From Rhodopirellula baltica SH 1 (lineage in GTDB: Bacteria > Planctomycetota > Planctomycetia > Pirellulales > Pirellulaceae), in assembly GCF_000196115.1 (NCBI RefSeq), contig NC_005027.1:6816001-6880000 (forward strand): a stretch of DNA of 64,000 nt, given 5' to 3'. Numbering within the stretch: position 1 is the stretch's first letter; the number at the start of each line of letters is the position of its first letter. Shown piece by piece: positions 55,994-60,271 of the stretch. A model generated the notes under the pieces. It did no database searches and had not been told where the DNA came from. It saw nothing but the letters and a program-made list of their open reading frames with translations. Both the position numbers and the translations under genes were made by a program.

Positions 55994-57523
55994 ATGCGTC
56001 TTCCTTTTGGAAATGTGGCCATGCGAACCGACAAACCCTCCGACGAACCGATGTCGCTCGATGGGATCACTCCCATCCCCGTGCCCTCGGTTTTTTCATC
56101 TGACAAAGACGCCGAGGCCGCCATGCTGAATGCGGCCAAAGATGGAATGGGTACGGAGTGGTTCGGATCCGCGGAAGACGGTGATTCGGAAAACCGTGAC
56201 ACGCAGGACCATGAGGCTCTGAATTCGAGTCGATCGGACTCGGCCAGTCGTGAATTGCTGTCGGCGAATTTGCGTCAGGATGAAAAACCAGAAGGACCAC
56301 CGCCACCGATCTCCAAGCCACCTGTTTCGGACCGGTGCTCGGATTCGGATCGCAACCAGAATGCTGGGCAGCCTCACCCGATCCTGCAAAGCCTGACGTT
56401 GCTGGCCACGATGGCGTTGATGTTGTTGCTGGCTCGTTACAGCGTTCCACACATTGTCGAAGAGATTCGCTACGCCTGGCACCGCGGTGAAATGCGAGCG
56501 GAAAACGAAACCGGCGTCGAAGGTCTTCGCAATGTTTCGTTGGATTCGCTCAGCCGAGCTTACGAAATGGTCACGTCCGCGGTCGGACCCACCGTGGTCC
56601 ACATCGATGTGGAACGTTCGGTTTCAGAAGAAGATCGCAATCTGCAACGTTTGCTCGGCGAAGATAGCTACACGTTGTCGGATCAAGGCAGCGGTGTGGT
56701 GATCGACAAAGACGGCTACATCCTGACCAACCGGCACGTGATTGCCGATGGTATCGCGATCAGCGTGACGCTCAGTGATGGTCGTCGGCTGCCCGCCGCT
56801 TTGGTCGGCAGCGATATGCCCACCGATTTGGCTGTTTTGAAAGTGGACGCGGACGGATTGATCCCAATTGCGTGGGGGGACAGCGATGCTTTGCGTGTCG
56901 GTTCACCCGTGTGGGCCGTCGGCAGTCCGTTTGGTCTGGATCGTACGATCACGTTTGGAATTTTGAGTGGCAAGCACCGTGTCGTGCGGGCTGGTGTTCA
57001 GCATGGTTCCAGTGCTCGATATCAAGACTTCATGCAAAGTGATGTGGCCGTCAATCCGGGCAACAGTGGCGGACCGCTCGTCGACGCCCGCGGACGCTTG
57101 ATCGGTATCAACACCGCGATCGTGGGTGACACGTATCAAGGCGTCAGCTTTTCGATCCCCAGCAACGTGACTCGCCAGATCTACGACCGCATTCGTGAGA
57201 CGGGCAAGGTCGAACGAGGATGGTTGGGAGTGCTGTTGTCGGAAGTTCCTGATTCTATGCACCGTGGCGATGACCTGCGTGTCCGAGGCGCGTTGATCTC
57301 CGGAGTGACGGGGGAAGATTCTCCTGCCGCCATTGCTGGATTGGAAATCGGCGACATCCTTTTGAAAATCGATGGCGTTCGAGTCAGCGACGTTGGTCAC
57401 CTGATGCGTCTGATCGCGAATCTCGGGCAGGGAACGTTGTTGAACGTTGAGCTGACCCGTGATGGCGAACCGATGACCGTCGAGGTGAGGCTGAAGAAAC
57501 GACCCGATAATCTGGATCGCTAA
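55994..57523 (+). CDS. HtrA/DegP-type serine protease with PDZ domain
   Basis: A membrane-anchored periplasmic protease of up to 509 residues. A long acidic N-terminal tail (~1-130) precedes one membrane helix (SLTLLATMALMLLLARYSVP). The S1C protease domain has the full triad: His248 in LTNRHVIADG, Asp278 in PTDLAVLKVD, and Ser358 in GNSGGPLVD. One C-terminal PDZ domain follows (LISGVTGEDSPAAIAGLEIGDILLKIDGVRV). ATG at 55994 is used; ATG at 56021 would also fit. It is a likely envelope protein quality-control enzyme. The unusually long cytoplasmic tail ahead of the anchor is not seen in classical DegP. Confidence 0.92.
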   Translation: MRLPFGNVAMRTDKPSDEPMSLDGITPIPVPSVFSSDKDAEAAMLNAAKDGMGTEWFGSAEDGDSENRDTQDHEALNSSRSDSASRELLSANLRQDEKPEGPPPPISKPPVSDRCSDSDRNQNAGQPHPILQSLTLLATMALMLLLARYSVPHIVEEIRYAWHRGEMRAENETGVEGLRNVSLDSLSRAYEMVTSAVGPTVVHIDVERSVSEEDRNLQRLLGEDSYTLSDQGSGVVIDKDGYILTNRHVIADGIAISVTLSDGRRLPAALVGSDMPTDLAVLKVDADGLIPIAWGDSDALRVGSPVWAVGSPFGLDRTITFGILSGKHRVVRAGVQHGSSARYQDFMQSDVAVNPGNSGGPLVDARGRLIGINTAIVGDTYQGVSFSIPSNVTRQIYDRIRETGKVERGWLGVLLSEVPDSMHRGDDLRVRGALISGVTGEDSPAAIAGLEIGDILLKIDGVRVSDVGHLMRLIANLGQGTLLNVELTRDGEPMTVEVRLKKRPDNLDR

Positions 57524-57579: not shown

Positions 57580-57958
57580 CTCGGCTCGCTGGAGGGCCCC
57601 AGCGTGCGACGGATGAGTGCGACACCAGAGTAGAACCATTGTCCCCAATTGTTCCGTCTAGCGGCTCCCGAAAGCCGAGCAGCGTCGCATCCATTCCAGC
57701 TCGCAAATCGTCCGCGCTGCGAACATCACTGTGGACACCGTGCTGAACTCATGCACGGCACGCTGGGGGCCCCAGCGAGCGACGGGTGATGCCGCTCCAG
57801 AGTAAAACAATTGTCCCCAATTGTTCCGTCTAGCAGCTCCCGAAAGCCGAGCAGCGTCGCATCCATTCCAGCTCGCACTTCGTGCGCGCTACAAACATCA
57901 TCTGCGACAACTGTGCTGGACTCATGCTCGGCTCGCTGGGGGCCCCAGCGAGCGACGT
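57580..57958. repeat. ~172-bp tandem repeat of palindromic units (about 2.2 copies)
   Basis: Two nearly identical ~172-bp units lie in tandem, with a partial third. Each unit contains a near-perfect palindrome (GCTCGCTGGG / CCCAGCGAGC, in variant form in copy one), then a conserved block with CCAGAGTA and TTGTCCCCAATTGTTCC, and CCGAAAGCCGAGCAGCGTCG. Palindromes are at about 57583-57605, 57756-57778 and 57929-57951. The repeat lies between the convergent htrA-like and leuA stops, so it can act as a two-way transcription barrier. It looks like a repeat family of this genus; copy differences are small. Confidence 0.75.
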
Positions 57959-57996
57959 TAAACGTTGATCGTGGGGCGGCGGATCTGCCTCCGCGA

Positions 57997-59607
57997 TCAG
58001 GGCTGAGGCAGTTCGCCGGGATCCGATGCGATGCCAGCAACGATGCGGTTGATCGCGTTGAGCATGGCCAAGATCGTGCTCTCGACACTGTCCGTGCTCA
58101 CCCCGGTGCCGCGATAAGTCTTGCCCTCGTGCTCGACTTCCAAGTTGACTTCGCCGATCGCGTCACGACCGAGCGTGGCACTGCGGACGCGAAAGTCTTT
58201 GCAGACCACTTGGATTCCGGTGATCTTCTCGACCGCCCAAAACGCGGCATCAATCGGTCCATCGCCCTGTGCAACTTGCTCGGTGATGTCCTGCTCGTCG
58301 CGTCGCAGCGTGACTCGCACATTTGGCGTTTGGTTCTTGCCGCTGGTGACTTCGTAATCGACCAGTGTCCATTCTGGGGCAACCGTCTCGCTGATCTTTT
58401 GTTGGACCAACGCGACGATGTCACCGTCGTAGATCTCTTTCTTCTTGTCGGCGAGTTCTTTGAATGCCTCGAAGACTTCTTGCAACTGTTCGCCGGTCAA
58501 CGTCATGCCCAATTGTTTGGCACGATCGGCCAACGCCGCGCGTCCGCTGTGTTTGCCGAGGACCAAATCGGTTTTGGTGAAGCCGACTTCTTCGGGCGAC
58601 ATGATTTCGTACGTGGTGCGTTCCTTCAACATCCCGTCTTGGTGAATGCCGGATTCGTGTGCGAACGCGTTGCGACCAACGATCGCTTTGTTGCGTTGCA
58701 CGTTGATGCCAGTGGTCTTGCTGACCAATCGACTGACGGGGACCAAGCGTTTTGAATTGATGTTGGTTTGGCAGTGATAGAAGTCTTGGCGAGTCTTCAT
58801 TGCCATCACCAATTCCTCGAGGGCCGCATTGCCGGCTCGCTCGCCAATGCCGTTGATCGTGCATTCGATCTGCCCGGCACCCGCGTCGACTGCGGCCAGC
58901 GAATTGGCGACCGCCATCCCCAAGTCATCGTGGCAGTGCGTGCTCAAGACGGCTTTGTCCATGTTGGGAACACGGTCCCGCAACATTTTGAATCGATCGT
59001 AAATCTCACCGGGTGTGGTGTAGCCGACCGTGTCAGGAACGTTGATCGTGGTGGCTCCCGCGTCGATCGCGGCTTCGACCACGCGGCACAGGAAATCGTG
59101 TTCGGTCCGGCAGGCGTCCTCGGGTGAGAACTCCACGTCATCGCAATGCGAAGCGGCACGGCGAACCCCGGCGACCGCCCGTTCGACGATCTCGTCGGGC
59201 GTCATCCGCAACTTGAATTCGCGGTGGATGGCGCTGGTGGCCAAGAACACGTGAATGCGAGCTTGCGGGGCGGTCTTCAACGCTTCCCAGGCTCGATCGA
59301 TGTCCTTTTCGGCACAACGAGCCAACCCGCAGATTGTCGCCCCGCGAATCGTGGTGGCGATTTGCCGGACCGATTCGAAGTCACCCGGGGAGGCGATTGG
59401 GAAACCGGCTTCGATGATGTCGACACCCAAATCGACCAGAGCCGATGCGACCTCGAGTTTCTCCGCCAAGTTCATGCTGGCACCAGGCGATTGCTCGCCG
59501 TCGCGCAGCGTGGTGTCGAAAATTCGGATTTGGCGAGTGGCCACGTTCTCAGAGGACGGGGCTTCGGCGGACTGGTTCATGGCATCAGGTGTCGGTTGGT
59601 CAGACAT
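57997..59607 (-). CDS. leuA: 2-isopropylmalate synthase
   Basis: First committed enzyme of leucine synthesis, condensing acetyl-CoA with 2-oxoisovalerate. The 536-residue protein starts at the ATG at 59607. The catalytic TIM-barrel motifs are FDTTLRDGEQSPGASM near residue 30, LSTHCHDDLGMAVANSLAAVDAGA near 224 with the metal-binding His pair, and INGIGERAGNA. The C-terminal ~130 residues are the LeuA dimerisation/leucine-feedback domain (VRVTLRRDEQDITEQVAQGDGPIDAAFWAV). The N-terminal tail is acidic and non-conserved. Upstream on the same strand are a Leu-rich leader peptide and a terminator, suggesting attenuation by leucyl-tRNA. Confidence 0.95.
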   Translation of the reverse strand: MSDQPTPDAMNQSAEAPSSENVATRQIRIFDTTLRDGEQSPGASMNLAEKLEVASALVDLGVDIIEAGFPIASPGDFESVRQIATTIRGATICGLARCAEKDIDRAWEALKTAPQARIHVFLATSAIHREFKLRMTPDEIVERAVAGVRRAASHCDDVEFSPEDACRTEHDFLCRVVEAAIDAGATTINVPDTVGYTTPGEIYDRFKMLRDRVPNMDKAVLSTHCHDDLGMAVANSLAAVDAGAGQIECTINGIGERAGNAALEELVMAMKTRQDFYHCQTNINSKRLVPVSRLVSKTTGINVQRNKAIVGRNAFAHESGIHQDGMLKERTTYEIMSPEEVGFTKTDLVLGKHSGRAALADRAKQLGMTLTGEQLQEVFEAFKELADKKKEIYDGDIVALVQQKISETVAPEWTLVDYEVTSGKNQTPNVRVTLRRDEQDITEQVAQGDGPIDAAFWAVEKITGIQVVCKDFRVRSATLGRDAIGEVNLEVEHEGKTYRGTGVSTDSVESTILAMLNAINRIVAGIASDPGELPQP

Positions 59608-59685
59608 GGGACTGCAATCTCGGAAAGGGAAGAAGATAAACTTCGGAGCCCCGGAATCGCACCCGCCGCACATGCATTCGGGCAC

Positions 59686-59720
59686 AAAAAAACCCGAGTC
59701 GCGGCAAGTGCGGCCCGGGC
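59686..59720 (-). terminator. Candidate attenuator terminator in the leuA leader
   Basis: On the minus strand a stem of CCCGGGCCGC with GCGACTCGGG (one G-T pair and one C-A mismatch), loop ACTTGCC, is followed by seven T residues. It lies 34 nt after the leader-peptide stop and 78 nt before the leuA start, exactly where an attenuator would sit. A clear alternative anti-terminator could not be drawn by eye, although the CCGCAC of the left arm can also pair with GTGCGG near 59670. Confidence 0.75.
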
Positions 59721-59754
59721 AAATTCATTCGATGGAAAATTGAGACAACCGCCG

Positions 59755-59838
59755 TCAGGCGTCCACCACGAATCCGCTCAGGCCGTTCGCTAGAAGGCCG
59801 AGGTCGAGATTCAGTAGGAGGCAAAGTTGTCCGCTCAT
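59755..59838 (-). CDS. leuL: Leucine-rich leader peptide of leuA
   Basis: A 27-codon minus-strand frame with ATG at 59838 and TGA at 59755-59757. Nine of 27 residues are Leu, eight of them within codons 5-16 (LCLLLNLDLGLL), using CTT, CTC, CTA and CTG codons. It ends FVVDA. It lies upstream of an intrinsic terminator and of leuA on the same strand. This is the classic layout of an amino-acid attenuator: the ribosome stalls at Leu codons when leucyl-tRNA is scarce. Too short for normal gene finding. Its real translation is inferred. Confidence 0.78.
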   Translation of the reverse strand: MSGQLCLLLNLDLGLLANGLSGFVVDA

Positions 59839-59847
59839 GGAACTGAC

Positions 59848-59875
59848 GATAATCCGATCCCGCCACGCCGGTCAA
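59848..59875 (-). promoter_or_regulatory. Candidate promoter of the leu leader
   Basis: On the minus strand TTGACC (59870-59875), then a 15-16 bp spacer and GATTAT/ATTATC (59848-59854). Transcription would begin only a few bases before the leader ATG at 59838, so the leader peptide might be translated from a nearly leaderless transcript. By-eye match only. Confidence 0.5.
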
Positions 59876-59935
59876 GGTGGGAATGGGGGGGGAGTGGGAA
59901 AGGGCCGCAGAAGCTCAGGGCCACAGTGGGGGGGG

Positions 59936-60271
<336 letters not shown>

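Follow-up and report, generated by a model that had tools for sequence, protein, structure and literature searches.

The leuA gene in this planctomycete DNA is preceded by a leucine-rich leader ORF, a terminator, a hairpin exclusive of that terminator and promoter-like boxes, and the arrangement is conserved and changes jointly among relatives. We conclude, with a probability of about 0.9, that leuA is controlled by a ribosome-mediated transcription attenuator. Leucine attenuation had been proposed in the earlier note on this DNA, and it remains the best reading of the conservation, the pairing and the position of the promoter site. The region carries the parts by which attenuators are recognized: a Leu-rich leader ORF, an intrinsic terminator, a computed antiterminator and, by consensus matching, a promoter upstream only. 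The mechanism itself is known; its occurrence in this phylum is new as far as the literature searched shows, and its less expected parts are the probable leaderless start and the spread.

Leader, terminator and promoter-like site before leuA

Coordinates are positions in the window, the whole 64,000-nt stretch analysed, which belongs to a genome of 7,145,576 bases in one contig (Table 1). Leucine is encoded at codons 5, 7, 8, 9, 11, 13, 15, 16 and 20 of the leader ORF, which amounts to nine of its 27 codons, eight of them within codons 5-16. The frame and its Leu cluster, eight codons within twelve, are as the earlier note had read them; its statement that the frame ends in Val-Val needs amending, the true C-terminus being Val-Val-Asp-Ala with Val-Val just before the end. 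Equally borne out are the stem-loop, separated from the leader stop codon by 34 nt, the seven T residues and the gene behind them, whose product is identified as LeuA by TIGR00973 (722.7 bits against a cut-off of 598.7). NF002086 was matched too, and the protein contains an HMGL-like and a LeuA dimerisation domain. Translation of leuA probably begins at the ATG at 59607, judging from a similar ATG context in relatives.

A generic pattern scan of 59500-60000 returned 0 terminator-like sites, with 0.4 expected by chance. The scan presumably missed the terminator because of a 1x1 internal mismatch in the stem and because the loop is too long if the outer stem alone is counted. The leader peptide matched no Pfam or NCBIfam model; the leader is thus a gene that family libraries do not recognise.

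Table 1. Features at the leuA locus of the window
Feature	Position	Strand	Basis or remark
-35 box, TTGACC	59870..59875	-	consensus matching; same place in relatives
-10 box, TATCGT	59846..59851	-	consensus matching; 7 nt before the leader ATG
Leader peptide ORF, MSGQLCLLLNLDLGLLANGLSGFVVDA, 27 codons + stop	59755..59838	-	sequence and conservation in relatives
Region 2, predicted core of the antiterminator 5' arm, leader nt 54-67	59772..59785	-	inside the leader, just after the Leu cluster
Predicted antiterminator hairpin, leader nt 54-128	59711..59785	-	-37.2 kcal/mol for the free RNA up to region 3, ribosome placed at Leu codon 11 or 13
Terminator hairpin	59692..59720	-	29 nt, -15.4 kcal/mol; 5' arm (59720-59710) is region 3
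U-tract, 7 T	59686..59692	-	first T can also close the stem by G-U
leuA, 2-isopropylmalate synthase, 536 aa	57997..59607	-	profile matches; alternative start GTG 59685

The promoter-like site just before the leader has 9 of 12 consensus matches and is the only one in 59500-60000. The consensus scan of this stretch found none between the terminator and leuA, where a transcript start, downstream of 59686, had been named in the earlier note as evidence against attenuation. We compared the 50 Pirellulaceae regions that have both leader and terminator, with positions counted relative to the leader's first base. TTGA stands at -37 to -35 in 30 of them and TANNNT at -13 to -11 in 29; both boxes occur in 27, whereas shuffles average 0.05 and never exceed 1. 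Shine-Dalgarno (SD)-like words before these leaders are about as common as in shuffled sequence (5 of 50, shuffled mean 3.9). Given the positions of the boxes, the 5' end of the RNA should fall on the leader ATG or no more than 1-2 nt from it, which suggests that the leader is probably leaderless in Pirellulaceae. With the leader starts picked for other families, which are less certain, no such arrangement of boxes is evident.

The leuA gene appears to be on its own. The first recognised gene downstream of it lies on the opposite strand: a Do/HtrA-type serine protease with a PDZ domain (55994-57523, +), convergent to leuA. Between them lies a repeat (57649-57961), in which the mechanical ORFs 57649-57789 and 57821-57961 share the same peptide at their starts. 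Upstream of the leader promoter are long heptanucleotide (GAAGCTA)n and hexanucleotide (GAGCAC)n repeats, at about 59936-60172 and 60171-60270, respectively, and six other places in the genome (L003-L008) contain pieces resembling the (GAAGCTA)n array.

Distribution of the leader among planctomycetes

The leuA search gave matches in 134 of 149 genomes of the family (E 1e-60), 103 of 244 of the phylum (E 1e-120) and 157 of 158 of the class (E 1e-40). Of the 133 other family members with a match, 60, mostly those that scored best, supplied upstream regions; a further 40 regions came from the phylum search and 60 from the class search, giving 161 with the window included. A Leu-rich ORF before leuA is more than chance. 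In the 450 nt preceding the leuA match, 109 of the 161 regions contain a short ORF with 6 or more Leu in 12 codons; on the antisense strand 3 regions do so and in the stretch further upstream 4, and dinucleotide shuffles average 2.0. With at least 5 Leu in 12 codons, the figures are 133 against 10, 11 and 20.8.

By group, the ORF with at least 6 Leu is present in 40 of 61 Pirellulaceae regions, 12 of 17 from other Pirellulales, 18 of 20 from family f3, 11 of 20 from f83, 10 of 14 from f84, all 6 from f85-87 and 12 of 23 from other classes. A leader ORF was called in 135 of the 161 regions, a few of these calls being doubtful, and 117 of the 161 have leader and terminator together (50 of 61 in Pirellulaceae, 20 of 20 in f3, 12 of 20 in f83 and 9 of 14 in f84). 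Every Planctomycetia family with more than three regions (f1, f3, f77, f83 and f84) has a Leu leader before leuA. As judged by sequence, the leader reaches through the examined families of Planctomycetia and into parts of other classes. Family f84 is presumably Gemmataceae: the LeuA proteins of its members G397, G424 and G470 share 71-77% identity with the LeuA of a Limnoglobus MAG (Gemmataceae), the next best among the matches listed, from other families, reaching 62-63%. We would guess that f3 is Planctomycetaceae, as the LeuA closest to the compared f3 member is that of Schlesneria (67%).

In the genus of the window, the Leu cluster and the terminator are kept in all 6 species of the set (its own and 5 others). 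Between genera, leader length, non-Leu residues and C-terminus vary widely and the leucines stay. Both the retention among close relatives and the drift of the remaining leader sequence had been put forward in the earlier note as checks of its proposal.

No leader ORF was called in 10 of the 61 Pirellulaceae regions, namely four of g11, two of g59, G142, G021, G112 and G126. Among these, G112 was missed by the 5-Leu rule and shows a leader with 4 Leu on inspection by eye, and the G126 region is truncated by a contig end; a fifth g11 region, G146, has a doubtful ORF and no terminator. The g11 (L047, L049, L050, L051, L054) and g59 (L052, L053) regions show no convincing Leu leader with terminator and are apparent losses. 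Several regions outside Pirellulaceae likewise have no called leader ORF, and some ORFs called without a terminator (for example in G146, G198, G269 and G163) are probably not leaders. In family f65 (L108, which is G370, and L105, which is G357), inspection by eye revealed a tight GC hairpin around the stop codon after the Leu run, with a weak terminator or none.

The terminator is altered in a Gemmata-like clade. Its members keep the leader and a strong GC-rich hairpin and have a broken U run (G397, G403, G405, G407, G424, G444, L181 and L182), 2 to 6 of the 8 bases that follow the hairpin, with the bounds used here, being T; the f84 members G438, G470, G411 and G481 have 7-8 T there. The hairpin bounds were off for G492, G421 and G401 in this analysis, and G394 gave none. 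In f83, 6 of the 18 regions with a leader fail the terminator rule, so broken or short U-tracts are not confined to the Gemmata-like clade. Either termination tolerates a broken U-tract or the output of the switch differs in these genomes. The Gemmata-like leuA regions L161, L154, L156 and L158 show this combination of retained leader and hairpin with a broken U-tract.

Mutually exclusive hairpins and Leu codon choice

The earlier note had found no clear antiterminator. One is present at 59785-59711, and its pairing is conserved across species. Region 2 forms 13 pairs with region 3 and the bases preceding it (z -1.9, p = 0.06 against shuffles for this genome alone). Region 3 is common to the terminator and the antiterminator, and the alternative folds that the earlier note had wanted predicted include this mutually exclusive hairpin, with region 3 captured on stalling.

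We folded the window leader with a ribosome placed at Leu codons 8, 11, 13 and 16 and at the stop codon. For the full-length RNA, the antiterminator is the best fold with the ribosome at codon 11 or 13, and at these codons only. At codon 8, the best full-length fold combines a hairpin of regions 1 and 2 with a shortened terminator; at codon 16, a shortened terminator is preferred and capture of region 3 is weak (0.30); and at the stop codon, the best fold is the terminator. Capture probabilities were computed on the transcript cut at region 3. They are 0.81 for a ribosome at the cluster's first Leu versus 0.18 at the stop codon. The cut transcript without a ribosome also gives 0.81, an antiterminated state that is unlike textbook superattenuation. 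The full 153-nt leader without a ribosome folds with the terminator, and the whole leader folds no better than shuffles (z -1.37).

Comparison across species makes the case for the antiterminator. Four distrusted calls were left out of the pairing tests, G370 and G421 because the wrong ORF was picked and G259 and G175 because leader or terminator is doubtful, which kept 113 of the 117 leaders. Mean capture of region 3 in these is 0.70 with the ribosome at the first Leu, 0.72 at the middle and 0.64 at the last, 0.25 at the stop codon and 0.48 without a ribosome; in 101 of the 113, capture for a first-Leu stall is more than 0.2 above that in the stop state, and in none is it more than 0.2 below. 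Regions 2 and 3 pair with a mean z of -1.83 (p = 5e-26). The cognate pairing is stronger than the additive expectation from non-cognate combinations in 99 of 113 leaders (p = 1.5e-17). Among decoys, the stretch upstream of the leader gave 59 (p = 0.32), the reversed region 64 (p = 0.04) and the reverse complement 60 (p = 0.19) of 113. By family, the cognate excess is found in 38 of 50 leaders of f1 (p = 2e-6), 17 of 20 of f3 (p = 4e-4) and 7 of 8 of f84 (p = 0.016), and in f83 it is not significant (7 of 12, p = 0.13).

Alignments within narrower groups say less. Across the 6 species of the genus, the terminator is paired throughout (100% of cells); the antiterminator reaches 85.9% and its best slid version 38.5%. 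One of the 13 antiterminator pairs changes on both sides (U-A to C-G or the reverse) with the terminator partner staying U, which 305 of 500 shuffles match, and two of the 13 are broken in 5 of the 6 species. In f3 (14 of 20 sequences aligned), the antiterminator is paired in 95.2% of cells and its best slid version in 66.7%, and two-sided changes are seen in 2 antiterminator pairs, a number reached by 76 of 500 shuffles; the terminator is paired in 96.4% with 5 two-sided changes and lies above all 500 shuffles on 4 of 5 measures. Within a single genus or family, covariation is too sparse to establish the antiterminator, and we accept it on the strength of the cross-species cognate test with its decoys.

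The position of region 2 fits a ribosome-controlled switch. It starts a median of 9 nt past the last Leu codon of the cluster (quartiles 5 and 11; earlier in 9 of 113) and overlaps the leader stop codon in 80 of 113 leaders. The genus of the window is a variant, with region 2 inside the leader and clear of the stop codon. Given this geometry, a ribosome finishing the leader would cover region 2 and one halted early in the cluster would not.

The choice of Leu codons in the leaders is also distinctive. Relative to the first 50 matched codons of leuA, in which CUA makes up 4-8% of Leu codons in Pirellulaceae, f3 and other Pirellulales, CUA is enriched in the leaders of all three groups: 33% versus 5% in Pirellulaceae (p = 5e-16), 25% in f3 (p = 1e-4) and 30% in other Pirellulales (p = 0.007). 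No significant difference in CUA between leader and leuA was seen in f83 or f84. In 32 long ORFs of the window, CUA accounts for 2.9% of Leu codons; ribosomes may be more likely to stall at a rare codon. The Leu codon used most in these ORFs, UUG (42%), is absent from the window's leader and is rarer in leaders than in leuA in all five groups.

Proposed mechanism, alternatives and known systems

We infer the following course of events, in which leaderless translation, stalling, the response to leucine and termination itself are all predicted. RNA polymerase would start at the leader ATG or no more than 1-2 nt away, and a ribosome would initiate directly at the 5' end of the RNA. When Leu-tRNA runs short, the ribosome would halt in the Leu cluster and leave leader nt 54-67 free to pair with the 5' arm of the terminator and the bases preceding it, so that the polymerase reads into leuA. 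If leucine is plentiful, the ribosome would reach the stop codon and cover nt 54 onward; the terminator would form, and transcription would end at the U-tract. On this view, the leader is a candidate sensor of Leu-tRNA charging that many planctomycetes share.

The leader ORF could instead encode a small hydrophobic protein that acts itself, as a membrane or trans-acting peptide, with the terminator merely giving it a transcript of its own. In Sinorhizobium meliloti, the attenuator leader peptide peTrpL is reported to have a function in trans (PMC7298713). A functional protein is nevertheless hard to reconcile with the wide variation of length, non-Leu residues and C-terminus between genera; what is conserved is the Leu codons, the use of CUA (in three of five groups), the position before leuA and the RNA pairing, and we regard this explanation as very unlikely. 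We give an equally slim chance to a Leu-codon leader that controls the translation of leuA, as proposed for the actinobacterial LEU element, with an incidental hairpin. Actinobacterial leuA leaders do hold a Leu run, and mutations in them do not fit classical attenuation (PMC1262725); the broken U-tracts of the Gemmata-like clade and some f83 genomes would also suit such control. Against it stand the hairpin and U-tract in 117 of the 135 regions with a called leader ORF, the capture of the terminator 5' arm by the antiterminator and, in 9/50 regions where the start could be placed automatically, a leuA with no SD-like 4-mer before it.

A hairpin that constitutively terminates upstream transcription, next to a Leu-rich frame that is a by-product of GC-rich sequence, is scarcely credible: chance hairpins and long ORFs are common in such sequence, but promoter-like boxes lie between the upstream sequence and this terminator, the ORF occurs in 109 versus 3 or 4 of 161 regions, and the pairing is cognate. 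Rfam families include known leu leaders and T-boxes. At gathering score, none matched the 701-base stretch or the 20 leuA regions of relatives, and a metabolite- or tRNA-sensing RNA (riboswitch or T-box) with an accidental ORF, to which only the alternative hairpins point, is exceedingly improbable given that codons and arm complementarity are what is conserved. A weak-threshold Rfam scan of the window stretch gave three sub-threshold matches, one of them to a betaproteobacterial sRNA family over the terminator (15.6 bits against a gathering score of 50); all were rejected as chance.

In leuL of Escherichia coli and Salmonella, a Leu-codon leader peptide, an antiterminator and an intrinsic terminator precede leuA. 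The attenuator proposed here has the same parts in the same place. It differs from the proteobacterial one in having no Rfam match, in a leader that is probably leaderless in Pirellulaceae and in a leuA that seems to stand alone. For the actinobacterial LEU element, a pseudoknot and a Leu run pairing with the Shine-Dalgarno box of leuA have been proposed (PMC1262725); the planctomycete leader, by comparison, has a terminator with a U-tract and a matching antiterminator. A leucine-rich attenuator peptide that controls branched-chain amino acid synthesis is described in Staphylococcus aureus (PMC5794164), which resembles ours in its Leu-rich leader and belongs to another phylum. In the alphaproteobacterium S. 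meliloti, the trpL RNA begins with the ATG of the leader ORF and switches between terminator and antiterminator (PMC7298713). That system senses Trp, and the leaderless start of the planctomycete leader is predicted from promoter position only.

For planctomycetes, the Rhodopirellula-1 motif is a candidate cis-regulatory RNA of Proteobacteria and Planctomycetes (Weinberg et al. 2010, PMC2864571), whose main text mentions neither leucine nor leuA; the table line that lists the motif gives no position. Leader genes close to start codons have been counted in many phyla including Planctomycetes (PMC4833913), and leucine and leuA are likewise absent from that main text. The earlier note knew of no description of leu attenuation in planctomycetes; we found none in the open-licence literature searched either, which does not prove that none exists.

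For ribosome-mediated attenuation, a ribosome must follow closely on the polymerase. In planctomycetes, and in Gemmata above all, transcription and translation have been claimed to be spatially separate (Gottshall 2014 as cited in PMC5287468 and PMC5394234). Because the Leu leader occurs in f1, f3, f77, f83 and f84, the last presumed to be Gemmataceae, this claim becomes testable on a single gene. One scenario is an ancestral planctomycete switch with a leaderless leader that needs a coupled ribosome, presumed Gemmataceae included, whose output has moved, for example to translation, in the Gemmata-like clade. If it were true, transcription and translation would be coupled in planctomycetes, and the moved output would be as expected if that coupling had been lost in the Gemmata-like clade. 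We consider the scenario unlikely, its odds being slightly lowered by the broken U-tracts in part of f83.

Other genes of the same genome offer a weak negative: ilvC, ilvB and two chorismate-binding genes have no such leader within 450 nt of the start of the longest ORF, these starts being uncertain. An ORF rich in Leu, Ile and Val at locus L261 lies on the strand opposite to a presumed ilvC and was set aside.

Beyond the phylum, we surveyed 80 loci (80 of 594 relatives) from many phyla, planctomycetes included. An ORF with at least 6 Leu in 12 codons is present at 16 of them, against 5 on the antisense strand. Leu-rich ORFs are present at four of the six verrucomicrobial loci (L204, L216, L220 and L253, with L243 and L258 lacking one), Pedosphaera and Akkermansia being taken here as Verrucomicrobia, and at two deltaproteobacterial loci (L226 and L241). 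Leu leaders before leuA are therefore not confined to planctomycetes, and the device may be older than the phylum or may have arisen repeatedly. At the four verrucomicrobial loci with a Leu-rich ORF, a hairpin followed by a T-run can be seen by eye before leuA (751-1211 of L204, L216, L220 and L253).
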